The notes under the pieces: model-generated | Seen by the model: the letters and a program-made list of their open reading frames with translations, nothing else | Told to the model about the DNA's origin: nothing | Database searches by the model: none | Position numbers and translations under genes: made by a program | NCBI RefSeq assembly: GCF_001518015.1 | Contig: NZ_LPUY01000054.1 | Coordinates: forward strand, 1-64,000 | Length of the DNA stretch: 64,000 bases | Direction: 5' to 3' | DNA from: Tritonibacter horizontis | Lineage (GTDB): Bacteria; Pseudomonadota; Alphaproteobacteria; Rhodobacterales; Rhodobacteraceae | Part shown: positions 5,176 to 27,162 of the stretch, one piece after another | How the letters are laid out: each line of letters starts with the position of its first letter | Numbering within the stretch: position 1 is the first letter of the stretch

Positions 5176-6096
5176 TCAGCCGTAGGTGCGTTCCTTGAAG
5201 GGCGTTGCCGCCAATTTCTCCATCAGTGCCGCCAGCAGTTTGTCTTCGGCCCGGTTGCGCGCTGTCGCCGGGTTCGAGATCAGGAACACGTCCACCTCGG
5301 GCAGATCCTCAAACGGGGGGACCTGCCACAGCAACCCGTCCCGCAGATCGCGGGCGACCACATGTTTGGGCAGGGGGCCGATGCCCAGCCCCGCCATGAT
5401 CATCCGGCGAACCTCTTCGAGGTTTTCTGAGACGCCTTTGACCTCTGGCGCCAGCGCGGCGCGCGCCCGCAGCAGGGTAACGTCCTGCAGCGCGTCTTGC
5501 AGCCGGTCGGTGTCGAACACAACCGCGCTGTGTCCCTGTAGATCGTCCAGCGTCAGATCGCTGCGTCCAAACAGCGGATGACGCGGCCCGCAGAACAGAC
5601 CAAAGGCCTCGCGGTACATCGGCACATAGTCCAGCGCCGGGTCCTGCGCGCGCACCAAGGCAATGCCAAAGCTCGCCCGTTTGGCGGTCACGGCCGCGAC
5701 CACATCGGTGCTGGTGATCACGTCGATCGACAGGCTGGCCTGCGGGTGGGCGGCATAAAAATCCGCGATCACCTCGTCAAAGGGCGGGCAGACCACATGG
5801 CTGGCCACGGCGATCCGCACATGGCCGCTGATTTGCGGCGTCACCTCCCGCATCAGGGTGGCCAACCGCAGGATCGACCCGTTGATGTTGACCGCCTCTC
5901 TGTAAAGGAGCCGCCCCGCCTCGGTCAGCTCGAACCGACCGGGAGAGCGGTCGATCAGGCGCTGACCCAGCCGGTCTTCGAGGTTTTTCAGGGCGACGGA
6001 AACGGTTGGCTGTTTCAATCGAAGCCGTTCAGCAGCCACCGTGATCGACGGGCTTTCCGCCAGCACAACAAATGTGCGGAGCAGGTTCCAGTTCAT
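5176..6096 (-). CDS. LysR-family transcriptional regulator, divergent from the TRAP operon
   Basis: A 306-residue LysR protein. The N-terminal winged helix reads LLRTFVVLAESPSITVAAERLRLKQPTVSVALKNLEDRLGQ, and a periplasmic-binding-like effector domain follows. I took the ATG at MNWNLL (complement 6094-6096), which puts the helix-turn-helix at the usual distance from the N terminus; upstream in-frame codons would add 34 residues of Pro/Arg-rich sequence. It is divergent from the TRAP transporter operon that starts at 6466. A perfect inverted repeat (6271-6291) of LysR-box form lies between them, so it most likely regulates that operon and itself. Confidence 0.88.
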   Translation of the reverse strand: MNWNLLRTFVVLAESPSITVAAERLRLKQPTVSVALKNLEDRLGQRLIDRSPGRFELTEAGRLLYREAVNINGSILRLATLMREVTPQISGHVRIAVASHVVCPPFDEVIADFYAAHPQASLSIDVITSTDVVAAVTAKRASFGIALVRAQDPALDYVPMYREAFGLFCGPRHPLFGRSDLTLDDLQGHSAVVFDTDRLQDALQDVTLLRARAALAPEVKGVSENLEEVRRMIMAGLGIGPLPKHVVARDLRDGLLWQVPPFEDLPEVDVFLISNPATARNRAEDKLLAALMEKLAATPFKERTYG

Positions 6097-6270
6097 GTCC
6101 CGCGCAAGGCGTTCGGGGTCAAGCGGGTCAGGGCGTCTGGGCACGGCAGATCCTTGGTCGAGCGGGCGGGGGAGCGGCGGCATTTGTGATGGTACCACAG
6201 GGCGTTGGGTGCCATTGTCGCACGCCCACCCTTGCGGTCGGTGGCGGCGAAACCTGGCCTTTCGCCCTCT

Positions 6271-6291
6271 GGCATAGATAAAAACTATGCC
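6271..6291. promoter_or_regulatory. Candidate LysR operator: 7-bp inverted repeat GGCATAG-N7-CTATGCC
   Basis: The arms GGCATAG and CTATGCC are perfect inverted repeats separated by seven A/T-rich bases. This gives the T-N11-A spacing of LysR boxes. The site lies between a LysR gene and the divergent TRAP operon, where an activator/autorepressor site is expected. An AT-rich stretch at 6292-6330 may hold the TRAP promoter. Confidence 0.6.
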
Positions 6292-6465: not shown

Positions 6466-7467
6466 ATGCTGAGAACCACATTTGCGACGGCTGTTTCCGC
6501 AGCCGCACTGACACTGTCGCTGACCGCCGCCGAGGCGGCAGACATGCGGCTCAAACTGGCGGGCGTGGTGCCGGTCGAACATTTCGGGAATGCGATCCTG
6601 AAACAGATCGAGGCGGATATCGAGGCGGCGGATGTCGGCCTGTCAGTCACGCTTTTCGAGGCCGGCCAGCTTGGCTCTGGCGAGGAGCTTTTTGAGGATG
6701 CCGCGCGCGGCAATGTCGATCTGGTGCATTCGGTGATCTATGCCCACCGCGACCCGGTTCTGGAAATCAACTCGCTGCCCTATCTGGTCTCCAGTTTTGA
6801 CGAGATGGAGGCGATCTATCTGAACAAGGACAGCGCCTTTAACGATATCTTTGGCGAGCGCCTCGAAGCCCTGGGGCTGAAGCTGCTTGCAAATGCGCCC
6901 GAAGGGTTCATCGGTGTCGTGGCCGAAAGCGAGCCGGACAATGTGACCACGGTCGGCGACAAGGGCGTGAACATTCGCGTCTGGTCCAGCCAGGTGATCA
7001 AAAGCACGGTCGAGGCCATGGGGTTCAATGCAACGACAATGAACTGGGGCGAGGTTTTCCCCGCGATCCAGTCCGGTGTCGTGGATGGCGCGATCTGCTG
7101 CACCGCGCAGCTGGCCTATAGCGCCTTTGCCACCTCGGATGTGGGCAAGTACTTCATTCCCTATGGCGCAGTGGTGGAAAACACCACCTATTATGCCTCG
7201 CTCGAAACCTGGGAAGAGATGAACGACGCGCAGCGCGCGGTGGTTCAGGCCGCGTTTGAAAAGGCGGCGCAGAGCTATTTCACCGAGGCCAGGGCCAATG
7301 AGGCCGACTATATCGACAAGCTGAAAGAGAGCGGCTACCAGGTGGTCGACATCTCCGATGCGCAGCGCGGCAAGATCGCCGACACCGTGCGGGCCGAGGT
7401 CTGGCCCGGCATCGCGGATATCGTCGGGCAGGACATCATCGACCGGTTGATGGCCCCCAAAGGGTAA
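6466..7467 (+). CDS. dctP: TRAP transporter substrate-binding protein (DctP family)
   Basis: A 333-residue periplasmic protein with a clear signal peptide (MLRTTFATAVSAAALTLSLTAAEA, cleaved near residue 24). The DctP fold motif LFEAGQLGSGEELFEDAARGNVDLVHS follows, and the late region holds the substrate-arginine loop (VNIRVWSS). I chose the ATG at 6466 because GGAG lies nine bases upstream and the signal peptide then starts properly; the ATG at 6451 is too close to its nearest purine tract. The substrate is not obvious. The CC pair in VVDGAICCTAQ is unusual for DctP proteins. Downstream enzymes suggest an acylated amine as ligand. Confidence 0.88.
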   Translation: MLRTTFATAVSAAALTLSLTAAEAADMRLKLAGVVPVEHFGNAILKQIEADIEAADVGLSVTLFEAGQLGSGEELFEDAARGNVDLVHSVIYAHRDPVLEINSLPYLVSSFDEMEAIYLNKDSAFNDIFGERLEALGLKLLANAPEGFIGVVAESEPDNVTTVGDKGVNIRVWSSQVIKSTVEAMGFNATTMNWGEVFPAIQSGVVDGAICCTAQLAYSAFATSDVGKYFIPYGAVVENTTYYASLETWEEMNDAQRAVVQAAFEKAAQSYFTEARANEADYIDKLKESGYQVVDISDAQRGKIADTVRAEVWPGIADIVGQDIIDRLMAPKG

Positions 7468-7480
7468 CGCCGTTTCCAGT

Positions 7481-7513
7481 GACCGGATGCTGCTCTTTCG
7501 GTGTCATCCGGTC
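7481..7513 (+). promoter_or_regulatory. Stem-loop between dctP and dctQ
   Basis: GACCGGATG and CATCCGGTC form a perfect 9-bp stem with a 15-base loop just after the dctP stop. No T-run follows, so it is more likely an mRNA-stabilising or processing hairpin than a terminator. Such hairpins often keep binding-protein mRNA in excess over the membrane genes. Confidence 0.5.
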
Positions 7514-7538
7514 GCCGTCACGGGCCCCGATGGGCCAA

Positions 7539-7552
7539 TTGACAGCTGTCAA
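7539..7552. promoter_or_regulatory. Perfect 14-bp palindrome TTGACAGCTGTCAA upstream of dctQ
   Basis: TTGACAGCTGTCAA is fully self-complementary and ends 11 bases before the dctQ start codon, next to its AAGGGG ribosome site. It could be an internal operator or a short RNA hairpin affecting dctQ translation. Function is inferred only from symmetry and position. Confidence 0.4.
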
Positions 7553-7563
7553 CAAGGGGCGTC

Positions 7564-8127
7564 ATGACCGATCTCAGCACTGACCTGCCAGCGGGGCTGG
7601 CCAAAACCGTTCGGATCTTGTTGCGGCTGCAGACGATCTACGTCTGCTTTGGCTGTCTGGCGATGGCCTTGACCTTCTTTTTCGTCGTGGTTTTTCGCTA
7701 CGGGTTCAACGCCGACCTCTTTGCCTATGAGGAATGGCTGCTGATCCTCTGTTTCTGGCTCTATTTCGTCGCCGCCGGCATCGGGACCTGGGAGGGCGCG
7801 CATGTAAACGCGGATCTTCTGGATCTGATGATCCTCGACCCGCTCCAGCGCAAGCGGCGCGCCATCCTGATCACGGCGATTGAACTGCTGGTGACGCTGG
7901 CGCTGTTTTACTGGTCCATCGTGATGATGATCGACGAGCTGGGCGACTACCCCCGCTATCAGACCACAATCGCGCTGCAGATCCCGTTTTTCGTGCCGCG
8001 TGCGGCGATCTTCGCGGGCTTTGGCCTGATGGGATTTTACAGCGCGCTCCGCCTCTATGTGTTCCTGAAACTCCCGGCTGCGCGTTTCGCCGTTCCGGCT
8101 GACCCGGCGCAGGAGCGCGGCGCATGA
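7564..8127 (+). CDS. dctQ: TRAP transporter small permease (DctQ family)
   Basis: A 187-residue protein with about four membrane helices (for example FGCLAMALTFFFVVVFRYGF and LLILCFWLYFVAAGIGTW). The conserved R-Y-x-F-N segment and E-E-W-L helix are typical of DctQ subunits. It forms the small membrane subunit of the sodium-coupled TRAP transporter together with the DctM gene, whose start overlaps its stop by four bases (ATGA). Confidence 0.88.
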   Translation: MTDLSTDLPAGLAKTVRILLRLQTIYVCFGCLAMALTFFFVVVFRYGFNADLFAYEEWLLILCFWLYFVAAGIGTWEGAHVNADLLDLMILDPLQRKRRAILITAIELLVTLALFYWSIVMMIDELGDYPRYQTTIALQIPFFVPRAAIFAGFGLMGFYSALRLYVFLKLPAARFAVPADPAQERGA

Positions 8128-9410
8128 TTATTCTCGGAAGCCTGCTGATCCTCTGTGTCTTGCTGCTCATCGGGGTGAGCGTGCCGCTGTCCTTTGGCGG
8201 TGTGCTGGTGTTCATCGGGGTCTTTGGGGGCCATGATGTGACCGGGTTCCTACCGACCGGCCATTGGAAGATGAACTCCATCGTCCTGCTGGCCATTCCG
8301 CTGTTCATTCTGGCCGGTGCCGTCATGGAAAGGGGCCGGATCGCCGCGCCGCTTGTCGCGGTGGCGGAGCTTCTGGTGGGGCGGCTGCACGGCGGGCTCA
8401 GCGCCGCGGCGGTTTTTGCCAGTGGCATTTTCGGATCGATCTCCGGTTCGGCGGCGGCGACGCTGACCTGCATTGGGTCGATCATGATGCCGCATCTCAA
8501 GGCGGCGAATTACCCGCGTGGCCCCGCCGCGGCGCTGATCGTCAGCGCCTGTCCGCTCGGCCTGCTGATCCCGCCGTCCTCGTCGCAGATCCTTTATGCC
8601 TGGGTGGCCCAGCAATCGGTTCTGAAGTGTTTCCTGTCGACCGTGGTGCCGGGCATCATCCTGATCACGCTGCTTTGCGTCGTGAACTATGTTCTGATGC
8701 GCAAGGCGGATCTCAAGCTGATGGAGAAGCCTGCGAGCTTTCCCCAGGAATTCGCGCGGCGCGGCGGGCGGGCCTTTCCGGCGCTGCTGATGCCGTTCAT
8801 CATTCTGGGCGGCATCTATGGGGGCATCATGACCCCGACCGAGGCCGCAGGCGTGGCGGTGATCTACGCCCTCCCGGTGGGCTTTTTCATCTATCGCGGC
8901 CTGACGGTGGACAACATCTGGCCAACCCTGCGCTATGCCGGCACCACCATCGGCGTCGTGATGCTGATGGTCTTTGTCGTGGTCATCGTCAGCCGGTTTC
9001 TGGTGTTCGAGGACATCCCCGGCATGGCCGAAGAGCTGATCTTCTCCATCTCCGACAACCCGATCGTGATCCTGCTCATGGTCAATCTGGTGATGATCCT
9101 GATTGGCATGTTGATGGATGACATCTCTGGCCTGTTGCTGTCGGCGCCGCTGCTGCTGCCAATCGTGCAAAGCGTCGGCATGGATCCGGTGCATTTTGCC
9201 GCTGTGCTGGGGGTGAACCTGGGGATGGCCAACATCACGCCGCCGACCGCGCCGCTGTTGTACCTTGGCGCCAAGGTGACAGACACGCCGGTCAGTGAGA
9301 TGCTGAAGCCGACGCTCATCATGATCGTCTTTGCCTGGTTGCCGACGCTGATGCTAACCACCTTTGTACCGCAGGTGGCCTTGTGGCTGCCCAATGCGGT
9401 CTTCGGCTGA
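8124..9410 (+). CDS. dctM: TRAP transporter large permease (DctM family)
   Basis: A 428-residue, roughly 12-helix membrane protein of the DctM family. It shows LLAIPLFILAGAVMERG near residue 55, a SGSAAAT segment near residue 110, TPTEAAGVAVIYALPVGF in the middle, and LGVNLGMANITPPTAPLLYLG near the C terminus. It is the transport channel that takes substrate from the DctP protein, driven by a sodium or proton gradient. It is translationally coupled to dctQ and followed 27 bases later by the deacetylase gene, so the transporter and catabolic enzymes appear to be one transcript. Confidence 0.92.
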   Translation: MIILGSLLILCVLLLIGVSVPLSFGGVLVFIGVFGGHDVTGFLPTGHWKMNSIVLLAIPLFILAGAVMERGRIAAPLVAVAELLVGRLHGGLSAAAVFASGIFGSISGSAAATLTCIGSIMMPHLKAANYPRGPAAALIVSACPLGLLIPPSSSQILYAWVAQQSVLKCFLSTVVPGIILITLLCVVNYVLMRKADLKLMEKPASFPQEFARRGGRAFPALLMPFIILGGIYGGIMTPTEAAGVAVIYALPVGFFIYRGLTVDNIWPTLRYAGTTIGVVMLMVFVVVIVSRFLVFEDIPGMAEELIFSISDNPIVILLMVNLVMILIGMLMDDISGLLLSAPLLLPIVQSVGMDPVHFAAVLGVNLGMANITPPTAPLLYLGAKVTDTPVSEMLKPTLIMIVFAWLPTLMLTTFVPQVALWLPNAVFG

Positions 9411-9437
9411 ACCGGCCATTTTCAGGAGCGAATGACG

Positions 9438-10466
9438 ATGAAAGCGATCCTTGATCCCCGCCAGCAGGCCCATGACCCGGCACATTTCATGGCCTATGGC
9501 GTGATGAAACCAAACCCGGAGCGCCCCGAGCGGATCGACATCCTGCGCCGCGGTGCCGAGGCGGCGGGCTGTGATTTTTCCGTGCCCGAGGACGCCGGGC
9601 TGGGGCCCATCGCGGCCCTGCACTCGCCGGAATATCTGACGTTTCTGCAAACCATTCACGCCCGTTGGTGCGCGATTGACGGGGCCGGGCCAGAGGTGAT
9701 CTCGCACGTCAAACCCGGCAATCGTGGTGACAGCTATCCCCGGTCCGCGCTGGGGCAGGCGGGCTACCACCAGACCGATACCTCCTGCCCGATCAATGCC
9801 GACACCTGGGGCTCTGCCTATTGGTCGGCGCAGACGGCGATTACGGCGGCGGGTCTGATCGGCGGCGGCGAACGCTCGGCCTATGCGCTGTGCCGTCCGC
9901 CCGGGCATCATGCCTTTGGTGACCTGGCGGGCGGGTTTTGTTTTTTGAATAATTCCGCCATTGCTGCCCAGTGCCTGCGGGACAAGGGGCTGCGTCCGGC
10001 GATCCTCGATGTGGATGTGCACCACGGCAATGGCACCCAGGGCATATTCTATGACCGCGACGATGTGCTGACCCTGTCGATCCATGCGGACCCAGCGGAA
10101 TTCTATCCCTTCTTCTGGGGCCACGCCGAAGAACGCGGGGCAGGTCGGGGGCGGGGCTATAACCTCAATCTGCCGCTGCCGCGTGGCACCGGCGACGCGC
10201 CGTTTCTGGCCGCGCTTGACACCGCCCTCGACCGGATCCGCGCCTTTGGCACAGATGTGCTGGTGGTCGCGCTGGGGCTGGATGCCTCCGAGGATGATCC
10301 CTTTCAGGGGTTTCAGGTCACCGGAGACGGGTTCGCCCGGATCGGCGCCGCCATTGCCGGGGCCGGTCTGCCCACCCTGTTCGTGCAGGAAGGCGGTTAC
10401 ATCTGCGACAGTCTGGGTCATAACCTGACCCGTGTGCTGGGCGGCTATCGCGACGCCGCAGTCTGA
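9438..10466 (+). CDS. Acetylpolyamine amidohydrolase-like zinc deacetylase (histone deacetylase superfamily)
   Basis: A 342-residue cytoplasmic hydrolase. Motifs in order are CRPPGHHAFGDLAGGFCFLNNSAIAAQ (the HH dyad), AILDVDVHHGNGTQGIFYDRDDV (zinc ligands Asp and His), SIHADPAEFYPFFWGHAEE, GLDASEDDP (third zinc ligand) and EGGY (catalytic tyrosine). The SIHADPAEFYPFFWGHAEE segment strongly resembles bacterial acetylpolyamine amidohydrolases rather than AcuC. Such enzymes remove acetyl from N-acetylputrescine, N-acetylcadaverine or related amines. I chose ATG 9438 because AGGAG lies nine bases upstream; ATG 9432 is only three bases from it. Its place after a TRAP transporter suggests the imported compound is its substrate. 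Confidence 0.82.
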   Translation: MKAILDPRQQAHDPAHFMAYGVMKPNPERPERIDILRRGAEAAGCDFSVPEDAGLGPIAALHSPEYLTFLQTIHARWCAIDGAGPEVISHVKPGNRGDSYPRSALGQAGYHQTDTSCPINADTWGSAYWSAQTAITAAGLIGGGERSAYALCRPPGHHAFGDLAGGFCFLNNSAIAAQCLRDKGLRPAILDVDVHHGNGTQGIFYDRDDVLTLSIHADPAEFYPFFWGHAEERGAGRGRGYNLNLPLPRGTGDAPFLAALDTALDRIRAFGTDVLVVALGLDASEDDPFQGFQVTGDGFARIGAAIAGAGLPTLFVQEGGYICDSLGHNLTRVLGGYRDAAV

Positions 10467-10500
10467 CACCCTATCAACCCTCACTCAGATCGAGACCAAA

Positions 10501-10851
10501 ATGACCGAGATTACCTATTCCCACACCACCCAGCGCATGAGCCAGATCGTGACCCATGGCGATACGATTTATCTGGCCGGTCAGGTGGGCACGGCAGGCG
10601 CCAGCGTGACCCAGCAGACGCAGGATTGCCTTGCAAAGATCGACGCCTTGCTGGCCGAGGCGGGCTCTTCCAAGGCGCGTATTCTGCAGGCGACCATCTG
10701 GCTTGCCGATATGGCTGACTTTGCCGAAATGAATGCGGTTTGGGATGCCTGGGTGCCCGAAGGCCGTGCCCCCGCCCGCGCCTGTGGCGAATCCAAATTG
10801 GCGACGCCGGATTTCACGGTTGAGATCCTGATCACCGCCGCCAAGGGCTGA
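10501..10851 (+). CDS. RidA family protein (enamine/imine deaminase)
   Basis: A 116-residue protein of the RidA/YjgF/Rid family: HGDTIYLAGQVG near the N terminus, the middle segment ILQATIWLADMADFAEMNAVWDAW, and a C terminus with PARACGESKLATPDFTVEILITA. The arginine of PARAC is in the place of the active-site arginine of imine deaminases. RidA proteins hydrolyse reactive 2-aminoacrylate-like imines formed by PLP or FAD enzymes. An FAD amine/amino-acid oxidoreductase gene follows at 10949, whose imine product would be a natural substrate. Confidence 0.87.
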   Translation: MTEITYSHTTQRMSQIVTHGDTIYLAGQVGTAGASVTQQTQDCLAKIDALLAEAGSSKARILQATIWLADMADFAEMNAVWDAWVPEGRAPARACGESKLATPDFTVEILITAAKG

Positions 10852-10948
10852 TCCCGGCGCCATTGGCACGCCTCTTCCCGTCACAACACCTGCGTTTGCG
10901 GTCTGCGCGGACGCAGGGACCCTTCTTTCGATTGCAGGAGCAACCCCG

Positions 10949-12211
10949 ATGTCCGAAATCCTGGTTCTTGGCGCCGGCATGGTGGGCATGACAACGGCGC
11001 TGGAGCTGCAATCGCGGGGGCACAGGGTGACGGTGGTCGACCGCAAGCCTGCCGGGCAGGAGACCAGTTTCGGCAATGCCGGCCTGATCCAGTCCGAGGC
11101 GGCAGAACCCTATGCGATGCCCCGCAGCCTGCCGGAATTGCGCGATCTTTTGCTGGGCCGCAGCAATGATGTGCTGTGGTCGCCCGCCGGCGTCTGGGGG
11201 CAAATGCCTGCTCTGTGGCAGTATTTTCGAAACTCTCACCCTGTGCGCCATCTTGCGTTGTCGCGTCCGCATGCGCAGTTGATTGCCACGGCCAGTCGCG
11301 ATCAGGAGCGCTGGATTGCCGCCAGCAAGGCCCAGGACCTGATCGCAAAGACGGGATATATCTCGATCTTTGACGACGCGCGCAGTTTTGACAGGGCGGC
11401 GGCGGATCTGTCGCGGCTCAAGGATCTTTATGACATCGCGGCGACACCGATGGATGGCGCCCGCTTCTGTGCGATGGAGCCGTCCTATCTGCGCCCGCCC
11501 GCCGGGGCGATCCATTGGCAGGACACCTGGAGTTGTTCCGATCCGGGCGGGCTGGTGGCTCGCTACGCGGCGCTGTTTCAGCAGCAGGGCGGTGCGTTGG
11601 TGACCGGGGATGCCAGCAGCCTGCAGCGGCGCGGCGACCGCTGGGACGTGCAAACGGCGGCAGGAGTGATCGCGGCCGAGCAGGCTGTCATCGCTCTTGG
11701 GCCTTGGTCGCCGGATCTGTTGCGGCGTCTGGGCTACCGGGTGCGAATGATCCGAAAACAAGGCGCCCATCGCATGTATGACACGCCAGTTCCGCTGCGG
11801 CGGCCGGTGTTTCATACCCGATACAGCGTGGTTCTGTCGTCGATGCGGGGCGGCACGCGGATGACCTGCGGGGTGGCGCTGCATGGGCGCGCGCGGCGTC
11901 CCGATCTGCGCCAACTCGACCGGGCGGCGGCGGGGCTGGCAACAGAGATCGATCTTGGCATACCAACAGCCGATGCACCCTGGCACGGCACCCGCCCGTT
12001 CATGCCTGACATGCTGCCGATGCTTGGGGCGGCGCCACGCCATGATCGGCTGTGGTTCAACTTTGGCCACGGACATCAAGGGTTTACGCTCGGGGCGACG
12101 ACGGCACGCCATCTTGCGGATATGGTCGACGGGCGTGTCAGGCCTGGCGGGGGGGCAGAGACCTGGCTGGAGGCACTGACCCCGGCCGCGCGGCCCAAGG
12201 TGATTGCGTGA
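10949..12211 (+). CDS. FAD-dependent oxidoreductase, D-amino acid dehydrogenase (DadA)-like
   Basis: A 420-residue FAD enzyme. The N-terminal dinucleotide fold is ILVLGAGMVGMTTALELQSRGHRVTVVDR, followed by ETSFGNAGLIQSE, a DadA-type FAD contact, and the C-terminal FAD/substrate segment WFNFGHGHQGFTLG. DadA-like proteins oxidise D-amino acids or related amines to imines. It ends the TRAP/deacetylase/RidA run and stops three bases before the convergent GbpR-like gene. A good AGGAG site precedes the ATG. Substrate could be a D-amino acid, or an amine freed by the upstream deacetylase. Confidence 0.82.
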   Translation: MSEILVLGAGMVGMTTALELQSRGHRVTVVDRKPAGQETSFGNAGLIQSEAAEPYAMPRSLPELRDLLLGRSNDVLWSPAGVWGQMPALWQYFRNSHPVRHLALSRPHAQLIATASRDQERWIAASKAQDLIAKTGYISIFDDARSFDRAAADLSRLKDLYDIAATPMDGARFCAMEPSYLRPPAGAIHWQDTWSCSDPGGLVARYAALFQQQGGALVTGDASSLQRRGDRWDVQTAAGVIAAEQAVIALGPWSPDLLRRLGYRVRMIRKQGAHRMYDTPVPLRRPVFHTRYSVVLSSMRGGTRMTCGVALHGRARRPDLRQLDRAAAGLATEIDLGIPTADAPWHGTRPFMPDMLPMLGAAPRHDRLWFNFGHGHQGFTLGATTARHLADMVDGRVRPGGGAETWLEALTPAARPKVIA

Positions 12212-12214
12212 GGG

Positions 12215-13213
12215 TCAGCTTGCGCCGGTCTCAGCGCCGTATCGCTGCGGGATTTGCTGGCTGATCAATTGGATGACACGGCGCGCCGCGGGCGAGGCTT
12301 TGGTGTTGCGCAGGTAGATCAGCGAAAACGGCACAACCTCCATGTCATCTGCAATCTCCAGACGTCGTATCCGCCCGCCAAAGGCGTTCTGCGACGCATA
12401 AAAATCCGCAGCGGCCCGCGCGATGGGGGCAATGGCATTGGTTTCACAGATGATCGCCAGGGTCAGCAGCAGCGACGAGGTACTGAGAATGCGCGCCGGT
12501 GTCCGGTAGCCGTTGCGCAGCAGATAGGCCTCGGCCGTGCGTCGCAACAGCCCGCCTTCTGGTTGCATCACCCAATCGTATTCCAGACAGTCCTCGACCT
12601 TGAGATTGCTGCGGCGGGACAGCGGATGCTCCAACCGGGTGACCAGCGACACCGGTTCGCGGCCGATCTCTTCGAGTATGATGGCCCCGGCGTCGACGCC
12701 ATCCGGCAGCCGCCCGATGTAGAAATCTAGATCTCCGGCCAGCAGCGCATCGCCGAGCTTGTCGCTGGTATCCACCAGAACCGAAATTTCGATCTCGGGG
12801 AAGGTCACCCGCAGCTCCCGGATCACCGGCAGAACCAGCTGTACTGCTGGCCCGGTGACGCTGCCGATCCGGACCTTGCCGCGATCGCCGCTGGCGAGAG
12901 ATGCAATTTCGTGCTGCACCTGATCCAGACCATGCAGCATGTCGCGGGCTCTCTGGGCCAGCACCGTCCCCGCCGCCGTCAGGGTGACGCCCCGCGCATG
13001 CCGGTCATAGAGCGGCGCGCCGATTGTCTTTTCCAGCTCGGCCAGCTGCCGGGAGGCTGCCGGTTGGGTCATGGCCACTTGCGCGGCGGCACCGGAGACC
13101 TGGCCCGTCTCCAGCAAGGCAACCAGAAGGCGTAGTTGCGGCAGCCGTAAACCGCGCCGGATCAGCTCATCACGCAGGGCGTGGACCTTGGGGGACGTAG
13201 ACGTGGAGGGCAT
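12215..13213 (-). CDS. gbpR: LysR-family regulator, GbpR-like, divergent from chvE
   Basis: A 332-residue LysR protein. Its HTH region lies about 20 residues later than usual (RLPQLRLLVALLETGQVSGAAAQVAMTQPAASRQLAELEKTIG), as in galactose-binding-protein regulators. The effector domain follows (VRIGSVTGPAVQLVLPVIRELRVTFPEIEISVLVD). I placed the start at MPSTSTSPKV; upstream codons in frame extend 80 residues without family resemblance. In Agrobacterium the LysR protein GbpR controls chvE in response to L-arabinose, galactose and fucose, and the arrangement here is the same. The symbol is by analogy. Confidence 0.78.
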   Translation of the reverse strand: MPSTSTSPKVHALRDELIRRGLRLPQLRLLVALLETGQVSGAAAQVAMTQPAASRQLAELEKTIGAPLYDRHARGVTLTAAGTVLAQRARDMLHGLDQVQHEIASLASGDRGKVRIGSVTGPAVQLVLPVIRELRVTFPEIEISVLVDTSDKLGDALLAGDLDFYIGRLPDGVDAGAIILEEIGREPVSLVTRLEHPLSRRSNLKVEDCLEYDWVMQPEGGLLRRTAEAYLLRNGYRTPARILSTSSLLLTLAIICETNAIAPIARAAADFYASQNAFGGRIRRLEIADDMEVVPFSLIYLRNTKASPAARRVIQLISQQIPQRYGAETGAS

Positions 13214-13218
13214 GGCGG

Positions 13219-13236
13219 TATCCCATTTATGGTATA
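13219..13236. promoter_or_regulatory. Candidate GbpR operator
   Basis: TATCCCA-TTTA-TGGTATA is an inverted repeat with one mismatch, ending six bases upstream of the GbpR-like start codon. Position and form suit LysR autoregulation and control of the divergent chvE operon. A second dyad, CACGAC-N11-GTCGTG (13290-13312), lies closer to chvE. Confidence 0.45.
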
Positions 13237-13376
13237 ACGATTGATGAAATCTGAATTTGATTGATATAGCCGCTTGGCGCAATGTCCAGCACGACTCGGA
13301 AAATGGGTCGTGAGTTACCAATAAAACCCGGACTGGTCGCTGAGGGAGCGGAGCCGCGGGTTCAGGGAGGAAAGTC

Positions 13377-14441
13377 ATGAACTTCACCAGACGTGCCCTT
13401 GGCGCGACCGCGCTTGCGCTTGTAACTGCCATGCCCGCCTTTGCGCAGGACAAAGGCTATGTCGGCATCGCGATGCCAACCAAATCGTCCGCGCGTTGGA
13501 TCGACGACGGCAACAACATGGTCAAGCAGTTCGAAGAAGCGGGCTACACCACTGATCTGCAATATGCGGACGACGATATTCCGAACCAGCTGGCCCAGAT
13601 CGAGAACATGATCACCAAAGGCGCCGATGTGCTGGTGATCGCGGCAATTGATGGCACGACGCTGACCAGCGCCCTGGCCAATGCCGCCGCCGCAGACATC
13701 AAGGTTGTCGCCTATGACCGCCTGATCCGGGACAGCGGCGACGTTGACTATTATGCGACCTTCGACAACTTCAAGGTTGGCGTTCAGCAGGCCGAGACGC
13801 TGGTCGCCGGTCTGGAAGAGCGTTTTCCCGATGTTGCGCCCTGGAACGTTGAACTCTTCGGCGGCAGCCCGGACGATAACAACGCCTATTTCTTCTACAA
13901 TGGCGCGATGTCGGTCCTGCAGCCGCTGATCGATTCCGGCAAGATCGCAATCCCGTCGGGCCAGATGGGTATGGACACCGTCGGCACCCTGCGCTGGGAC
14001 GGCTCCGTGGCGCAGGCCCGGATGGATAACCTGCTGTCCGCCAACTACACAGAGCAGGCCGTGAATGGCGTCCTGTCCCCCTATGATGGTCTGTCCATCG
14101 GTATCATTTCGTCGCTGCAAGGCGTCGGCTATGGGTCCGGCGACATGGCCATGCCCATCGTGTCCGGCCAGGATGCCGAAATCCCGTCGGTCAAGGCGAT
14201 CCTGCGGGGCGATCAGTACTCCACGATCTTCAAGGATACGCGCGAACTGGCACGTGTGACCGTCAGCATGGTGAACGCATTGCTGGATGGGGGCGAGCCC
14301 GAGATCAACGACACCGAGACCTATGACAACGGTGTCAAAGTGATCCCGTCCTATCTGCTTGAGCCGCTTCCGGTAACCGAAGCCAATTGGGAAGAGGTCC
14401 TGATCGGCAGCGGTTACTACGAAAAAAGCGAAATCGAATAA
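13377..14441 (+). CDS. chvE: ChvE-type multiple-sugar-binding periplasmic protein
   Basis: A 354-residue periplasmic binding protein with signal peptide [23 protein letters not shown], cleaved before [19 protein letters not shown]. The sequence [30 protein letters not shown] and the later [21 protein letters not shown] are hallmarks of ChvE/MmsE. Homologues bind L-arabinose, D-galactose, D-xylose and D-glucose. It is first in the arabinose operon, with a GGGAGGAAAG ribosome site, and is separated from its ATPase gene by an intrinsic terminator, which would raise its expression over the rest. Confidence 0.92.
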
Positions 14442-14479
14442 GGCAACCTCCCGATCGGCTGGTTAGCCGGTCCACTTTG

Positions 14480-14510
14480 GCCCGCCGGACTCTTCCCGGC
14501 GGGCATTTTT
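14480..14510 (+). terminator. Intrinsic terminator after chvE
   Basis: GCCCGCCGG and CCGGCGGGC form a perfect 9-bp stem with a 7-base loop, followed by ATTTTT. It lies inside the operon just before the ATPase gene, so it is likely a partial (attenuating) terminator. Confidence 0.85.
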
Positions 14511-14517
14511 AGAATGC

Positions 14518-16062
14518 GTGAGTAAACGGATGCCCCCAATTCTTGAAATGCGCGGGATCACCAAGGAATTTCCAGGTGTGAAGGCGCTGGACGATGTAAC
14601 CCTTTCAGTGGCCGAAGGCGAAATACACGCGCTTGTCGGCGAAAACGGGGCGGGTAAGTCCACGCTGATGAAGGTGCTGTCCGGGGTCTACCCCCATGGC
14701 AGCTATGACGGCGAAATCTTCTTTGACGGCGCGCCGCGCGCCTTTCGCTCCATCCGGGACAGCGAAGACCTTGGCGTGATCATCATCCACCAGGAGCTGG
14801 CCCTGATCCCGCTCCTGTCGGTGGCCGAGAATATCTTTCTTGGCAACGAACGGGCCACCAACGGTATCATCGACTGGAAAGAGACCCACAACCGGGCGGC
14901 GGAGCTGCTGGCGCGGGTCGGTCTGGAAGAAAACGCCGAGACGATTGTGGACGATCTGGGGCTGGGCAAACAGCAGCTGGTCGAGATCGCCAAGGCCCTG
15001 TCCAAGAATGTGCGGCTGCTGATCCTGGACGAGCCGACCTCGTCCCTGAACGAAAACGACAGTGCCAAACTGTTGGATCTGCTGATGGATTTCCGCGAGA
15101 AGGGGATCACCTCAATCCTGATCTCGCACAAGCTGAACGAAGTGTCGAAAGTCGCCGATACCATCACGGTTCTGCGGGATGGATCTGCGGTGGCGCGCAT
15201 GGATTGCGCCGATGGCGTCGACGAAGATGACATCGTCCGCAACATGGTCGGGCGCAACCTCGAAGATCGCTACCCGCCGCGCGGCACCCATGCGCCGGGC
15301 GAGGTGGCGATGGCGGTCAAGAACTGGACCGTGCACCATCCGCTGCACCCGGAACGCAAGGTCGTCAACAATGTCAGCTTTTCTGTCCGCAAGGGCGAGG
15401 TGCTGGGCATTGCCGGCCTGATGGGCGCGGGGCGGACCGAATTGGCGATGAGCCTGTTTGGCCGCAGCTATGGGCGCGATATCAGCGGCGAGGTGGAGAT
15501 CAACGGCACGCCCGTGGATCTGTCGACGGTGCGCAAGGCGATTGATGCCGGGCTGGCCTATGCCACCGAGGACCGCAAGACCTATGGTCTGGTGCTCGAT
15601 GATACCATCCGCCGCAATGTGCCGCTCGCCAATCTGCCCGAAATCGCCAAAAATTGGGTGGTCGACCATGGTCGCGAGGCCGAGGTGGCGACGCGCTATC
15701 GCAACCGGTTGGCGATCAAGTCATCGTCGATCGAACAGGTCACAGTGAACCTTTCGGGGGGCAACCAGCAAAAGGTGGTGCTGTCGAAATGGCTCTTTGC
15801 CGACCCCGATATTCTGATCCTCGACGAGCCGACCCGCGGCATCGACGTGGGCGCGAAGTTTGAAATCTACACGGTCATCCGCGACCTCGCAGCACAGGGC
15901 AAGGCGATCATCGTGATCTCGTCTGAATTGCCCGAACTGCTGGGGGTGACGGATCGGCTCTATGTGATGAACGAAGGCCAGTTTGTCGGTGAAATGCCGA
16001 CCATCGAGGCCAGCCAGGAAAAAATTATGTCGAGAATTGTCAAATCGGGAGAAGATGCATGA
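14518..16062 (+). CDS. gguA: Multiple-sugar ABC importer ATP-binding protein (GguA/MmsA)
   Basis: A 514-residue tandem ATPase with two ABC modules. The first has Walker [10 protein letters not shown] (about 41-49) and a Walker B region ending [20 protein letters not shown]. The second has the signature [14 protein letters not shown] and Walker [21 protein letters not shown]. Sequence such as [13 protein letters not shown] identifies the GguA/MmsA group that pairs with ChvE. The start is uncertain: GTG at 14518 lies immediately after the terminator with little ribosome-site sequence, and ATG 14530 is an alternative that loses four residues. It overlaps gguB by four bases. Confidence 0.93.
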
Positions 16063-17267
16063 CCGATACAACCCCGTCCACGTCAGGGCGTGCAGAGACC
16101 CGCACATCTAAATCCGGTTTGCAGTTCCTCAAGGGGCACCTGCGTGAATATGGTATCCTGATCGCGCTGGTCGTGATCATGGCCTTCTTTCAGGTGGCGA
16201 CGGGCGGCATCCTGCTGAAGCCGGTCAACCTGACCAACCTGATCCTGCAGAACTCCTATATCGTCATCATGGCGGTGGGCATGTTGCTGGTGATCGTCTG
16301 CGGCCACATCGACCTGTCGGTCGGCTCGGTGCTGGGCTTTATCGGTGCCCTTGCGGCGGTGATGATCGTGCAATGGGGCCTGCCATGGCCGCTGGCTGCA
16401 GTCATCTGTCTGGCCTTTGGCGCCATCATCGGCATGGCGCAGGGGTTCTGGGTGGCCTATTTCCAGATCCCGTCCTTTATTGTGACCCTTGCCGGCATGC
16501 TGGTCTTCAAGGGGCTGACCCTCTGGTTGCTGGCAGGCCAGTCCGTGGGCCCGTTCCCGCCGGACTTCCGCTTGATCTCCTCGGGTTTCGTGCCGGACGT
16601 CTTTGGCGGTGAGAACCTCAACCTGCTGACGCTCTATACCGGGATCGCGGTGGCTGCGCTGCTGCTGTGGCTGTCCATCCGGGCGCGGCAGCGCCAATTG
16701 GGCACCGGGGCCGATGTGGAACCCTTTGCCTTTTTCGCGGGGCGCAGCGCGCTGATCTTCGGGGCGCTGGTCTATATGTCCTGGCTGATGGCGGATTTCC
16801 GTGGCCTGCCCAACGTCTTTGTGGTCATGGCGCTGCTGATCGCGGTCTATTCCTTCCTGACCAGCCGCACCACCTTTGGCCGCCGGATCTATGCCATCGG
16901 CGGCAATGAAAAGGCCGCGTCGCTGTCCGGAATCAACTCCAAGCGTCTGACCTTCCTGACCTTTGCCAACATGGGCATGTTGGCTGCCCTCGCCGGGCTG
17001 GTGTTTGCGGCGCGCCTCAACACCGCAACCCCCAAGGCCGGCGTCGCCTTTGAACTGGACGTGATCGCGGCCGTGTTCATCGGTGGGGCCTCCATGTCGG
17101 GCGGTGTCGGCACCGTCGTCGGCGCTGTCGTCGGGGCCTTTATCATGGGGGTCATGAACAACGGCATGTCGATCCTCGGGATCGGCATCGACTGGCAACA
17201 GGTGATCAAGGGCCTCGTCCTGCTGGCCGCCGTCATTTTCGATGTAATGAACAAGAAGAAAGGGTAA
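16059..17267 (+). CDS. gguB: Multiple-sugar ABC importer permease (GguB/MmsB)
   Basis: A 402-residue inner-membrane permease with about ten hydrophobic segments. It shows the family's [28 protein letters not shown] near residue 75, and the late motif [27 protein letters not shown] (with [18 protein letters not shown]). Its start overlaps the gguA stop (ATGA). With ChvE and GguA it forms a monosaccharide importer. The cytoplasmic loop with [20 protein letters not shown] is the expected ATPase-contact region. Confidence 0.93.
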
Positions 17268-17271
17268 CGTC

Positions 17272-18264
17272 ATGCTGCTTTCGCAATATGCGCGTGAAGA
17301 CGGGTCGGCGCAGATCGTCGCCCGAGACGGAACCGAAGCCTATCAGGTCGATACCGAACTGAGCCTTTATGGCCTGGCGATGGACTGCATCGAAAAGGGC
17401 CAGTCGCTGCGTGACCGGATCACCGCACTGGGTCTGCGCGGGGCGGTCGATATGGAGGCGCTTTATGCCGCTGGGCGTCTGTTGCCGCCGGTCACCCATC
17501 CGGACCCTGCGCATCTGCATCTGACCGGAACCGGGCTGACCCATCTGGGCTCCGCCGCGACCCGCTCGGAGATGCACAAGAAAAACACCGGGGACGAGAC
17601 CGACAGCATGAAGATGTTCCGCATGGGCGTCGAAGGCGGCAAGCCCGCCGACGACACCGCCGGGGCACAGCCTGAATGGTTCTACAAGGGCAACGGCAGC
17701 GTTGTCGCGGCACCCGGCGGCACGCTCAAGTCCCCGGAATTTGCCGAAGACAGCGGCGAAGAGCCGGAAATCGCAGGCATCTACCTGATCGCGCCCGATG
17801 GCACGCCGGTGCGCCTTGGCTGGGCATTGGCCAATGAATTCTCCGATCACATCATGGAGCGCCGCAACTATCTTTATCTGGCGCATTCCAAATTGCGCCC
17901 GGCATCCTTCGGGCCAGAGTTGCTGATCGGTGACCTGCCGGAGCACGTCGAAGGCACCTCCCGCGTGCGGCGCGGCGACGAGGTGATTTTTGAAAAACCG
18001 TTTGTCTCTGGCGAGGCAAACATGAGCCACACGTTCGCCAATCTCGAACATCACCACTTCAAATACGATCTGTTCCGGCAACCGGGCGATCTGCATGTGC
18101 ATATGTTCGGCACCGCCACGCTGTCCTTTGCCTCCGGCATCCAGACGCAAGACGGCGACGTGTTTGAAATCGAGGCCGCGCCCTTTGGCCTGCCTCTGCG
18201 CAACCCCTTGTCGTTCAAGCCGCTTGGAAAGCCCGAGCAGCGTGTCACTGTCCGTAGTCTCTGA
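17272..18264 (+). CDS. gguC: GguC / AraD1-family protein, probable L-2-keto-3-deoxyarabonate dehydratase
   Basis: A 330-residue protein of the GguC family, related to fumarylacetoacetate hydrolases. It shows HLHLTGTGLTHLGSA, EWFYKGNGSVVAAPGG, the metal-binding-type acidic motif EEPEIAGIYLIAPDG, and GDEVIFEKPFVSGEANMSHT. In the non-phosphorylative arabinose route the step from 2-keto-3-deoxyarabonate to 2-oxoglutarate semialdehyde needs a dehydratase. No classical AraD (DHDPS-like) gene is present here, and this gene sits between transporter and arabonate dehydratase. The AraD1 role is therefore inferred from context and from what is known for this family in other proteobacteria. Confidence 0.82.
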   Translation: MLLSQYAREDGSAQIVARDGTEAYQVDTELSLYGLAMDCIEKGQSLRDRITALGLRGAVDMEALYAAGRLLPPVTHPDPAHLHLTGTGLTHLGSAATRSEMHKKNTGDETDSMKMFRMGVEGGKPADDTAGAQPEWFYKGNGSVVAAPGGTLKSPEFAEDSGEEPEIAGIYLIAPDGTPVRLGWALANEFSDHIMERRNYLYLAHSKLRPASFGPELLIGDLPEHVEGTSRVRRGDEVIFEKPFVSGEANMSHTFANLEHHHFKYDLFRQPGDLHVHMFGTATLSFASGIQTQDGDVFEIEAAPFGLPLRNPLSFKPLGKPEQRVTVRSL

Positions 18265-18272
18265 GGTTTATC

Positions 18273-20018
18273 ATGGCGTTCACACCGGCCGAATGGCCCC
18301 GCAAACTCAGATCGCAGGAATGGTATGGCGGCACGTCGCGCGATAGCATCTATCACCGTGGCTGGCTGAAAAACCAGGGCCACCCGCACGACCTGTTTGA
18401 TGGACGGCCGGTGATCGGCATCCTCAATACCTGGTCCGACCTGACCCCCTGCAACGGTCACCTGCGCGACCTGGCGGAAAAGGTAAAGGCCGGCGTCTGG
18501 GAGGCCGGTGGCTTCCCGCTTGAGGTGCCGGTTTTCTCGGCCTCTGAAAACACGTTTCGCCCTACCGCGATGATGTATCGCAACCTTGCCGCCATGGCGG
18601 TCGAGGAAGTGATGCGCGCCCAGCCGATTGATGGCGCGGTGCTGCTGGTGGGCTGTGACAAGACCACGCCCTCGCTGATGATGGGGGCGGCTTCGACCGA
18701 TATTCCGTCGATTGTCGTCACCGGCGGGCCGATGCTGAACGGCTGGTTCCGTGGCGAACGCGTCGGCTCCGGTACGGCGCTCTGGCAGATGTCCGAGGAC
18801 ATCAAGGCCGGCAAGATGAGCCAGGAAGATTTCCTGGAAGCGGAACAGGCCATGTCGCGCTCGTCCGGCACCTGCAACACCATGGGCACCGCTTCCACCA
18901 TGGCCTCCATGGCGGAGGCCATGGGCATGGCGCTCTCTGGCAATGCCGCGATCCCCGGCGTCGATGCGCGTCGCCGCGTGATGGCGCAGATGACCGGTCG
19001 CCGCATCGTGCAGATGGTCAAGGATGATCTGAAACCCTCTGACATCATGACCCGGGCCGCCTTTGAAAACGCGATCCGCACCAATGGGGCCATCGGTGGG
19101 TCCACCAATGCGGTGGTGCATCTGATGGCGCTTGCAGGCCGTGTCGAGGTGGATCTGACCCTCGACGATTGGGACCGGCTGGGGCGCGATGTGGCAACCA
19201 TCGTCAACCTGATGCCCTCGGGTAAATACCTGATGGAAGAGTTCTTTTATGCCGGCGGCCTGCCTGTCGTGCTGAAACGCCTCGGCGAGGCAGGGCTGTT
19301 GAACAAAGAGGCGCTCACGGTCTCTGGTGGCGAAATCTGGGACGAGGTCAAAGACGCGGTCAACTGGAACGAGGATGTGATCCGCCCTGCAGAAAAGGCG
19401 CTGACCTCCTCGGGTGGGATTGCGGTGCTGAAGGGCAACCTCGCCCCCAAGGGGGCGGTGCTGAAACCCTCCGCCGCCTCGCCGCATCTGATGCAACACC
19501 GGGGCCGGGCTGTCGTGTTCGAGGATATCGACGACTACAAGGCCAAGATCAACGACGATGGGCTCGATATCGACGAGACCTGCGTCATGGTGCTGAAAAA
19601 CTGTGGCCCGCGCGGCTATCCCGGCATGTCCGAGGTTGGCAACATGGGTCTGCCGCCAAAGGTGCTGAAACGGGGCATCACCGACATGGTGCGGATTTCC
19701 GACGCGCGCATGTCCGGCACCGCCTATGGCACCGTGGTCTTGCACACCTCGCCCGAGGCCGCGGTCGGCGGACCGCTGGCGATTGTCCGGGACGGTGACA
19801 TGATCGAGATCGACGTGGACGCGCGCCGCATTCACCTCGACCTCACGGATGAGGAAATCGCGGCCCGCCTGGCCGACTGGCAGCCGCCAGAGGCGCCACC
19901 GAAACAGGGCGGCTATACCCGGCTCTATCATGACAATGTCGAAGGGGCCGATACCGGCGCTGATTTTGGCTTCCTCAAGGGATGCCGCGGACGGGAGGTG
20001 CCACGTGACAGTCACTAA
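18273..20018 (+). CDS. L-arabonate dehydratase (IlvD/Edd family)
   Basis: A 581-residue iron-sulfur dehydratase. The three cysteine positions expected for the cluster are visible: NTWSDLTPCNGHL, GCDKTTPSLMMGA and SSGTCNTMGTASTM. The C-terminal GNMGLPPKVLKRGITDMVRISDARMSGTAYGTV is typical of the sugar-acid branch rather than dihydroxyacid dehydratase. It would convert L-arabonate to L-2-keto-3-deoxyarabonate. It follows gguC by eight bases and overlaps the dehydrogenase gene by 14, so the whole pathway is tightly coupled. Closely related enzymes act on D-xylonate or D-galactonate, which cannot be excluded. Confidence 0.88.
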   Translation: MAFTPAEWPRKLRSQEWYGGTSRDSIYHRGWLKNQGHPHDLFDGRPVIGILNTWSDLTPCNGHLRDLAEKVKAGVWEAGGFPLEVPVFSASENTFRPTAMMYRNLAAMAVEEVMRAQPIDGAVLLVGCDKTTPSLMMGAASTDIPSIVVTGGPMLNGWFRGERVGSGTALWQMSEDIKAGKMSQEDFLEAEQAMSRSSGTCNTMGTASTMASMAEAMGMALSGNAAIPGVDARRRVMAQMTGRRIVQMVKDDLKPSDIMTRAAFENAIRTNGAIGGSTNAVVHLMALAGRVEVDLTLDDWDRLGRDVATIVNLMPSGKYLMEEFFYAGGLPVVLKRLGEAGLLNKEALTVSGGEIWDEVKDAVNWNEDVIRPAEKALTSSGGIAVLKGNLAPKGAVLKPSAASPHLMQHRGRAVVFEDIDDYKAKINDDGLDIDETCVMVLKNCGPRGYPGMSEVGNMGLPPKVLKRGITDMVRISDARMSGTAYGTVVLHTSPEAAVGGPLAIVRDGDMIEIDVDARRIHLDLTDEEIAARLADWQPPEAPPKQGGYTRLYHDNVEGADTGADFGFLKGCRGREVPRDSH

Positions 20019-20967
20019 GATCGCATTGGTCGGGATCGGCAAGATCGCGCGGGACCAGCATGTACCCGCCCTCGCGGCCTCTGATGCCTTTGAACTGGCG
20101 GCAACCGTCAGCCGCTCCGGCGGTCTGGAGGGGGTCGAGAACTACGGCACCATCGAGGCGCTGCTGGAGGCGCGGCCCGATATCTCCGCCATCAGTTTTT
20201 GCACCCCGCCTCAGGTGCGCTATGACGGCGCGCGGGCGGCTCTGGCGGCGGGACGGCATGTGATGCTGGAAAAACCGCCCGGTGCCAGCCTGTCGGAGGT
20301 GCACGCATTGCAGGCACAGGCCGCCGCGGCCAACCTCAGCCTCTATGCGACATGGCACTCGCGCCATGCGGCCTCGGTGCCGGCCGCACGGGCATGGCTG
20401 GCGGACAAGACCATCAAATCGGTTCGGATCGACTGGAAAGAGGACGTGCGCGTCTGGCATCCCGGCCAGCAATGGATCTGGCAGGCCGGCGGTCTCGGCA
20501 TCTTTGACCCGGTGATCAACGCGCTGTCGATCCTGACAGAGATCCTGCCGGTTCCGGTCTATGTCACCGGCGCCGACCTGCGGTTCCCCAGCAATTGCGA
20601 GACCCCGATTTCAGGCAGGATCCAGATGGGCGGCCCGGATGGACCGCTGGTCGAGTCGGATGTGGACTTCCTGTTCGAAGGCGAGCCGCTGTGGCGTCAC
20701 GTGGTCGAAACCGACGCAGGCACGCTGACCCTGAACGAAGGCGGCGCGGTGCTGGACATCGACGGGACAACCCCGGCAACGAACGGCGCCGAGGAGGCAA
20801 AGCTGCATGGCGAATACGACGGGCTCTATGCCGCCTTCGCCAACCTTCTGGCAACCGGATCGTCCGAGGTGGATCTGCGCCCGATGACCCTGGTTGCCGA
20901 TATCTTCACGCTAGGCCGTCGCCTTGAGGCGCCGGAATTCATCGACCCCACTCTCCAGGAGAATTGA
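20005..20967 (+). CDS. L-arabinose / D-galactose 1-dehydrogenase (Gfo/Idh/MocA family)
   Basis: A 320-residue NAD(P)-dependent sugar dehydrogenase. IALVGIGKIARDQHVPALAA at the N terminus, MLEKPPGAS (the catalytic lysine of the EKP motif) and KEDVRVWHPGQQWIWQAGGLGIFDP closely resemble the Azospirillum-type L-arabinose 1-dehydrogenase, which also uses galactose. It oxidises the sugar to its 1,4-lactone. The start is a GTG at 20005 with GGGAGG eight bases upstream, overlapping the end of the dehydratase gene. Frames upstream extend further, but the conserved Rossmann segment begins right here. Confidence 0.87.
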   Translation: MTVTKIALVGIGKIARDQHVPALAASDAFELAATVSRSGGLEGVENYGTIEALLEARPDISAISFCTPPQVRYDGARAALAAGRHVMLEKPPGASLSEVHALQAQAAAANLSLYATWHSRHAASVPAARAWLADKTIKSVRIDWKEDVRVWHPGQQWIWQAGGLGIFDPVINALSILTEILPVPVYVTGADLRFPSNCETPISGRIQMGGPDGPLVESDVDFLFEGEPLWRHVVETDAGTLTLNEGGAVLDIDGTTPATNGAEEAKLHGEYDGLYAAFANLLATGSSEVDLRPMTLVADIFTLGRRLEAPEFIDPTLQEN

Positions 20968-20968
20968 C

Positions 20969-22492: not shown

Positions 22493-22512
22493 TCGCGTCG
22501 GGGGAAAGCATG

Positions 22513-22537
22513 TCAGCGGCGAATGGTTCGCCGCTGA
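22513..22537. promoter_or_regulatory. Perfect 11-bp stem-loop between the semialdehyde dehydrogenase gene and ytfQ
   Basis: TCAGCGGCGAA and TTCGCCGCTGA are exact inverted repeats around TGG. No T-run follows, so this is not a standard terminator. It may protect the 3' end of the upstream mRNA, or serve as an operator for a promoter of the second transporter. Confidence 0.5.
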
Positions 22538-22589
22538 TCGACAGGGTCTTGGGAGGAACCTGACCCGTCACCCAGGAGGAGGAAATACC

Positions 22590-23537: not shown

Positions 23538-23545
23538 TTGAATTT

Positions 23546-23581
23546 GACCGGCACGGGGCCTCCTCGTGCCGGTCTTTTTTT
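23546..23581 (+). terminator. Intrinsic terminator after ytfQ
   Basis: GACCGGCACG and CGTGCCGGTC form a perfect 10-bp stem with a 9-base loop, followed by seven Ts. Like the one after chvE it sits between binding-protein and ATPase genes and probably limits read-through. Confidence 0.9.
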
Positions 23582-23624
23582 ACCGCAGGACATATGCGGC
23601 AGGCACCTAATTTGCGGGACCGAC

Positions 23625-27117: not shown

Positions 27118-27162
27118 CCGCGCTGTTCGACATCACATCGCAACCCGCAGGAGCCCGCCCCC

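Follow-up and report, generated by a model that had tools for sequence, protein, structure and literature searches.

Which compound is taken up and broken down by a gene block in which a tripartite ATP-independent periplasmic (TRAP) transporter is directly followed by a deacetylase, an imine deaminase and a flavin-dependent oxidoreductase? The block lies in a 64,000-nucleotide stretch of Tritonibacter horizontis DNA (contig NZ_LPUY01000054.1, positions 1 to 64,000; hereafter the window). Judged by its genes and their relatives, it may be a horizontally mobile catabolic cassette under LysR control whose substrate is a zwitterionic amino acid in N-acetylated form, most likely a diamino acid acetylated at the omega-amine (an isomer of acetyl-ornithine or acetyl-lysine), and we give this reading a probability of about 45%. 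The genes were called from open frames and Pfam, and the features are as follows.

5176-6198, - strand: LysR1, divergent regulator (PF00126 and PF03466); the true start may lie further in, at ~6144
6271-6291, LysR1-dctP intergenic region: putative LysR operator, a perfect palindrome, GGCATAG-ATAAAAA-CTATGCC (GGCATAG-N7-CTATGCC)
6466-7467, + strand: DctP, TRAP solute-binding protein (PF03480, 120 bits; AlphaFold 2 mean predicted local distance difference test score 89.6)
7564-8127, + strand: DctQ, TRAP small permease (PF04290)
8124-9410, + strand: DctM, TRAP large permease (PF06808, 272 bits; TIGR00786 above cut-off)
9432-10466, + strand: HDAC/APAH-family amidohydrolase, here called the deacetylase (PF00850, 231 bits; best PDB sequence 3men, 1.1e-95)
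10501-10851, + strand: RidA-family imine deaminase (PF01042; Arg-105 equivalent, R93)
10949-12211, + strand: DadA-like FAD-dependent oxidoreductase of the DAO family (PF01266, 171 bits)
12215-13213, - strand: second LysR gene, after the DAO gene

The assignment to the TRAP transporters follows from separate DctP, DctQ and DctM proteins encoded in one operon, all above the Pfam cut-offs. From dctP to the DAO gene, the six genes are separated by 96, -4, 21, 34 and 97 bases. An earlier note on this DNA had described a TRAP-deacetylase-RidA-DadA-like run on one strand behind a LysR operator, and this description was borne out: the run occupies 6466-12211 with gaps of at most 97 bases, and the operator is a perfect palindrome. 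The same note had read the gene order as a route of import, deacetylation, oxidation and imine hydrolysis. The order does fit an acylated amine; the polyamine that had been suggested as its substrate is weakened by the results below. From the protein families, DctPQM would import an N-acetyl amino acid and the HDAC-fold zinc amidohydrolase would release acetate; the DadA-like flavoprotein would oxidise the freed amino acid at the amine next to the carboxylate to a 2-imino acid, which RidA would hydrolyse to a 2-oxo acid and ammonia.

One set of clues to the substrate comes from the transporter. Arg171 of DctP is invariant in 17 aligned rows and stands at what we take to be the typical place of this residue in acid-binding TRAP receptors. 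A relative with 69-70% DctP identity (locus L102) is encoded beside an ornithine cyclodeaminase (NF005762, 581 bits, cut-off 350), an M20D amidase and a racemase. Other relatives of DctP are accompanied by a trans-3-hydroxyproline dehydratase (636 bits, cut-off 550), a DAO and a DHDPS-family gene (L111), by proline-racemase-family genes (L117 and L118, and by annotation L145 and L154), or by sarcosine oxidase (L153). The enzymes beside these DctPs appear to point to zwitterionic amino acids. In a Foldseek search with DctP, the ectoine receptor UehA ranked first, and TeaA and UehA are among the tied best structural matches. Ectoine systems (TeaABC, UehABC) are a precedent: a TRAP transporter takes up a zwitterionic derivative of an acetylated diamino acid, and N-acetyl-diaminobutyrate is then deacetylated, although their deacetylases belong to another family than HDAC/APAH. 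They also differ from the window in that DctP identity is 19-23% and no ectoine hydrolase was seen in the block. The Arg-105 equivalent of RidA (R93 in the window) is kept in 32/32 sequences, and this arginine determines the imine deaminase activity of RidA (PMC5619798).

We then placed the deacetylase among its relatives. The related loci are the best 80 from a deacetylase scan of the databases, in which more exist, and with locus L113 they number 81. They were typed by tblastn matches of at least 45% identity (40% for the GNAT acetyltransferase and one permease) on the deacetylase strand within 9 kb. An ATP-binding cassette (ABC) importer was present in 71/81 loci, of Pot type in 55 and of lysine/arginine/ornithine (LAO) type in 16; five loci had a TRAP transporter, and five, on contigs of 5.7-15.6 kb, had no detected importer. 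In the order Pot, LAO, TRAP and no importer, a class III aminotransferase was found in 54/55, 16/16, 1/5 and 2/5 loci, BKACE in 51/55, 16/16, 1/5 and 3/5, GNAT in 51/55, 5/16, 0/5 and 3/5 (59/81 in total), a DauA-like gene in 42/55, 0/16, 0/5 and 2/5, and RidA in 26/55, 2/16, 3/5 and 1/5. The aminotransferase and BKACE occurred together in 70/81 loci. L069 has BKACE without the aminotransferase, and L078 has neither. An ABC importer, the aminotransferase or BKACE was present in 75/81; the six loci with none of the three are L001-L004, L031, which is cut close upstream, and L060, a true exception with 9 kb of upstream sequence free of aminotransferase, BKACE or matched importer. The M20D amidase and racemase families seen at L102 recur next to the deacetylase in 9/16 LAO-ABC loci (the latter as an alanine-racemase-like gene), and 6/16 carry a creatininase-family gene. 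Pot genes had no match in the block, and the aminotransferase and BKACE genes had none in the window.

The regulator connects these loci. A LysR1 homologue (at least 44% identity) lies on the opposite strand in 71/81 of them, and the motif ATAG-N7-CTAT occurs in 35/72 LysR intergenic regions, the window's included (100 dinucleotide shuffles: mean 0.17, maximum 2). By type, the motif was found in 20/50 Pot, 12/16 LAO and, in exact form, only 3/6 TRAP regions. One regulator type and one operator motif across three importer types suggest one inducer class.

The neighbours in the relatives that resemble the D-arginine dehydrogenase DauA bear on the kind of substrate. E87, Y53, R222, Y249 and R305 are kept in 44/44 sequences, position E246 is acidic in 44/44 (41 E, 3 D), and I or V stands in place of H48. 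In DauA, E87 and E246 contact the guanidinium of the cationic side chain, and R222 and R305 the carboxylate (PMC11193025). Since both groups of residues are kept, the compound handled by the Pot-type loci seems to be a D-amino acid with a basic side chain or a molecule of similar shape. The window resembles the pairing of DauA with a Rid protein in combining flavin-dependent oxidation with imine hydrolysis; it has a DadA-like enzyme instead of DauA, however, and the substrate of this enzyme need not be a D-amino acid.

These results bear on the acetylated polyamine route, in which the TRAP system would import N-acetylputrescine, N-acetylcadaverine or N-acetylspermidine, the HDAC-fold enzyme would deacetylate it, and the flavoprotein and RidA would oxidise the amine. 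The family name of the deacetylase speaks for it, because the nearest solved relatives are called acetylpolyamine amidohydrolases, and so do the PotD/PotA-like importers in 55/81 related loci. The window enzyme is like these amidohydrolases (M. ramosa ApaH, Pseudomonas sp. ApaH, 3men and Marinobacter ApaH) in family, length, and zinc and catalytic motifs: aligned to 3men, 9gkz and 6phr, it keeps RPPGHH, DVDVHHGNG, EGGY and the zinc ligands. In contrast, at the positions of E106 and E117, with which M. ramosa ApaH holds the distal amine, 0/82 deacetylase rows have an acidic residue, with V/T/L/I/A and A/S instead, and the position of the PIS gatekeeper reads P then F in 81/82, mostly followed by Q or K (PF[Q/K]). 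Residues of the E106/E117 type serve polyamine recognition (PMC5454378 for E117; PMC11532494), and PIS is the gatekeeper motif of bacterial polyamine deacetylases (PMC11532494); the available part of PMC4784309 has nothing on these pocket residues. The absence of the two acids had been considered a decisive test of a polyamine pocket and was reduced to weak evidence after the 9gkz alignment, since Pseudomonas sp. ApaH (the 9gkz rows) also has no acidic residue at these positions and is nevertheless a polyamine deacetylase (PMC11532494); the pair is thus no strict definer. Against the polyamine proposed in the earlier note stand also the invariant DctP arginine, the amino-acid genes beside several DctP relatives, the RidA arginine, and BKACE and the DauA-like enzyme in the related loci, which act on carboxylic acids. 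We therefore regard a polyamine as an improbable substrate and favour an N-acetylated (di)amino acid.

How did the TRAP-containing form arise? In a maximum-likelihood tree of 82 deacetylases with midpoint root, the window enzyme and those of L001-L004 formed one clade (100/100) on a long stem (0.33), which joined 65 ABC-type or unassigned rows at a fork supported by 100/98. The rows branching outside that fork, with weaker support (97/76, 90/70), were all of Pot type apart from L113. L113 is a separate TRAP locus that joins the aminotransferase, BKACE, the deacetylase, a TRAP system of the window-DctP family and an Fe-dependent alcohol dehydrogenase; it sits on a long branch, and its placement is unsure. 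The tree requires two changes of the TRAP label, which we read as two acquisitions. One genome (G298) has two TRAP systems of the window-DctP family, L102 and L113. In L110 (G320:C31), an aminotransferase (63%) and then a BKACE match of only 39 positions precede dctP of a TRAP system of the same family, and this BKACE may be decaying.

The complete arrangement of the window (LysR1, DctPQM, deacetylase and DAO) was found in only four of the best 80 loci, L001-L004, whose hosts are an Epibacterium, two Tritonibacter and Paracoccus onchidii and whose deacetylases are 84-87% identical to that of the window. The earlier note had asked whether the deacetylase and the transporter stay together in relatives: they do in five genomes, whereas outside this clade most relatives use an ABC importer, and there the expectation failed. 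Window proteins encoded outside the LysR1-DAO region (those ending before 30000) had no match above 45% identity at E <= 1e-20 in L001-L004. Since no flank of the window is common to these loci, the block moves as a unit and is no chance run of genes. No upstream gene is common to L001-L004; downstream, L001, L002 and L004 share one gene (831-832 codons, 90-95% identity), and L001 and L004 a further one. Among 394 genomes of the family, 135 had deacetylase matches at E <= 1e-80 (with >=60% identity in 84), and 15 had DctP matches at E <= 1e-60; a DctP of >=70% identity was found only in the window's own genome and in G298. In another genome of this genus (G293), the sole deacetylase match is a paralogue at 42%, and there is no DctP match at E <= 1e-60. 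The small number of loci sharing the arrangement, the unshared flanks and the nesting within ABC-type loci characterise the TRAP block as a derived, mobile variant. The window block is a mobile, remodelled form of a widespread catabolic locus.

Remodelling may have reached the deacetylase itself. At the cut-offs we used, only four columns set the five TRAP-clade enzymes apart from 76 others: P91S, N92H, H94K and V215L. The first three fall in the L2 loop by alignment. L113 keeps P, N and H as well as the aminotransferase and BKACE, so the shift tracks the loss of these enzymes and not the TRAP transporter; being confined to a single clade, it may reflect a single event. The loss extends to the genomes. 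In those of the window, L001, L002 and L004 there was no BKACE orthologue at E <= 1e-20 (in the L003 genome, G396, the best match had 37%), and none of the five TRAP-clade genomes had an aminotransferase above 44%, in contrast to the related loci, where both adjoin the deacetylase. These two enzymes are what the related loci have in common with BKACE and lysine fermentation (Kce) pathways. A pair of an aminotransferase (44%) and a BKACE-family gene (161 bits) in the window genome (G000, C53:26679-28732) recurs in several related genomes. We rejected it as the counterpart of the lost genes and treated it as a separate locus, since like pairs coexist with the full cluster elsewhere (G138:C14, G298:C9).

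An alternative follows from the composition of the relatives: the substrate of the deacetylase might be 4-acetamidobutyrate or another short N-acetyl acid, the proposal made for the ABC loci, and the TRAP system would import it directly, with the flavoprotein and RidA serving another amino acid of the same regulon. The aminotransferase-BKACE-GNAT-deacetylase core of the relatives, followed in two plasmid loci by LysR and an acyl-CoA thioesterase, is in line with this, as is the lack of an aminotransferase or BKACE orthologue in the window genome. However, RidA and the flavoprotein would be left with no role, and the change at 91-94 argues for a different deacetylase substrate. We consider it rather unlikely.

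A similarly low probability attaches to a set of genes that is co-regulated and does not form one linear pathway, namely an importer together with broad amine-salvage enzymes (a promiscuous deacetylase, a general D-amino acid dehydrogenase and RidA for detoxification). The transporter and flavoprotein types do vary around the same deacetylase and LysR, and RidA is absent from L003; yet recurrence of the block as a unit in loci that lack the window's flanks, and the retention of an operator motif between LysR and the divergent genes, speak against this.

The N-acetyl amino acid reading has to be held against several observations. The block in L003 has no RidA. The changes P91S, N92H and H94K relative to 76 relatives imply that the window deacetylase and those of the ABC loci may act on different substrates. 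PotD-like importers dominate among the relatives (55/81). The M20D amidase, racemase and cyclodeaminase genes are not in the window block, and the DctP neighbourhoods of L104-L110, L112 and L114-L116 contain mixed genes of no clear class. With VIA-align, ranks 2-16 for DctP lay at Z 34.0 to 33.1, with ectoine, sugar-acid and isethionate binders alike, so that the fold comparison does not separate these ligands. The DAO is the least conserved member of the block (61-64% in L001-L004), and its best NCBIfam match, D-amino acid dehydrogenase (PRK00711), reached 137 bits, below the cut-off of 383. Finally, Rid2 and Rid3 act on the iminoarginine produced by DauA and RidA/Rid1 does not (PMC5619798); the window RidA was placed at family level only.

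What, then, was the parental locus for? Its importer, class III aminotransferase, BKACE, GNAT, HDAC-fold deacetylase and, sometimes, acyl-CoA thioesterase could constitute an aerobic pathway for acetylated beta-lysine or a related beta-diamino acid, with the deacetylase as its missing enzyme; the window would be a form in which both the transporter and the oxidising branch have been exchanged and the specificity loop of the deacetylase has changed. This idea is speculative, and we think it doubtful, if less so than the alternatives above. The distal amine would be acetylated, the beta-amine transaminated, the product cleaved with acetyl-CoA to an acetamidoacyl-CoA and acetoacetate, and the acetyl group finally removed. 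The aerobic acetylated beta-lysine pathway was described by enzymology of the 1970s-80s (EC 2.6.1.65 and 3.5.1.51). To our knowledge, it is known at the enzyme level only, and its enzymes may still lack genes. An aminotransferase, an acetyltransferase and a deacetylase in one run fit the transient acetyl protection of this pathway. The BKACE of L007, the sole one scored against NCBIfam, passes the 3,5-dioxohexanoate model NF053538 (512 vs 430 bits) and matches BKACE15 (8rio/8rip) with 387 bits; BKACE15 takes uncharged beta-keto acids (PMC11961710), and the family groups by substrate nature, with promiscuity (PMC4922564).

Among eleven plasmid loci whose deacetylase neighbourhoods were read, five have the aminotransferase and BKACE adjoining, four of these with GNAT; the neighbourhoods of the remaining six contain deacylases, unrelated genes, or importers of peptide or other type, and none of the eleven has a DctP match. 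On a Shinella sp. plasmid (L150) and on one in a record named Roseateles sp. XES5 (L152), the aminotransferase, BKACE, GNAT and deacetylase genes stand in a row, and LysR and acyl-CoA thioesterase genes come next; this compact arrangement is a candidate operon for a beta-amino acid pathway with acetyl protection. Three other plasmid loci (L141, L144 and L146) encode more distant deacetylases (49-66%) beside other ABC importers, and two of them carry an ArgE/DapE deacylase or an annotated 6-aminohexanoate-dimer hydrolase, a hint of other amide substrates.

Several points weigh on the beta-lysine idea. The lysine 2,3-aminomutase model TIGR03820 had matches in 141/398 genomes at E <= 1e-60, none above its cut-off, and in the three genomes of the window's family with such a match tblastn found no aminotransferase, BKACE or deacetylase near it. 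The aminomutase search neither supports nor refutes beta-lysine; the absent linkage counts against it, as do the DauA-like, amidase and racemase neighbours, which it does not explain. We found no paper assigning genes to the acetylated beta-lysine pathway, including the available parts of PMC12133276, PMC11961710, PMC4922564 and PMC3149608; subscription literature was thinly covered, and assignments may exist in print. Our search likewise found no literature joining an acetylpolyamine amidohydrolase with a TRAP transporter.

Downstream of the block, at 12215-28146, a LysR gene is accompanied by a chvE-like monosaccharide ABC transporter, by genes resembling those for AraD1, dehydratases and aldehyde dehydrogenases, and by another set of sugar ABC genes. 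Judged by the beginnings of the sequences, this region looks like oxidative pentose/hexose catabolism, and this second LysR gene, with what looks like a monosaccharide ABC operon behind it, seems to be a unit separate from the block. One Phyllobacterium locus has a sugar-ABC neighbourhood similar to the chvE-like operon, which we judged a coincidence.

To summarize, a deacetylase subfamily whose solved relatives are named acetylpolyamine amidohydrolases is tied here by genome context to amino-acid catabolism, and one LysR regulator type is paired with three unrelated importer types. If our interpretation is true, it would redirect the annotation of the deacetylase found at >=60% identity in 84/394 sampled genomes of the family, offer a testable case for TRAP import of acetylated amino acids and supply gene candidates for enzymes to which none may yet have been assigned.

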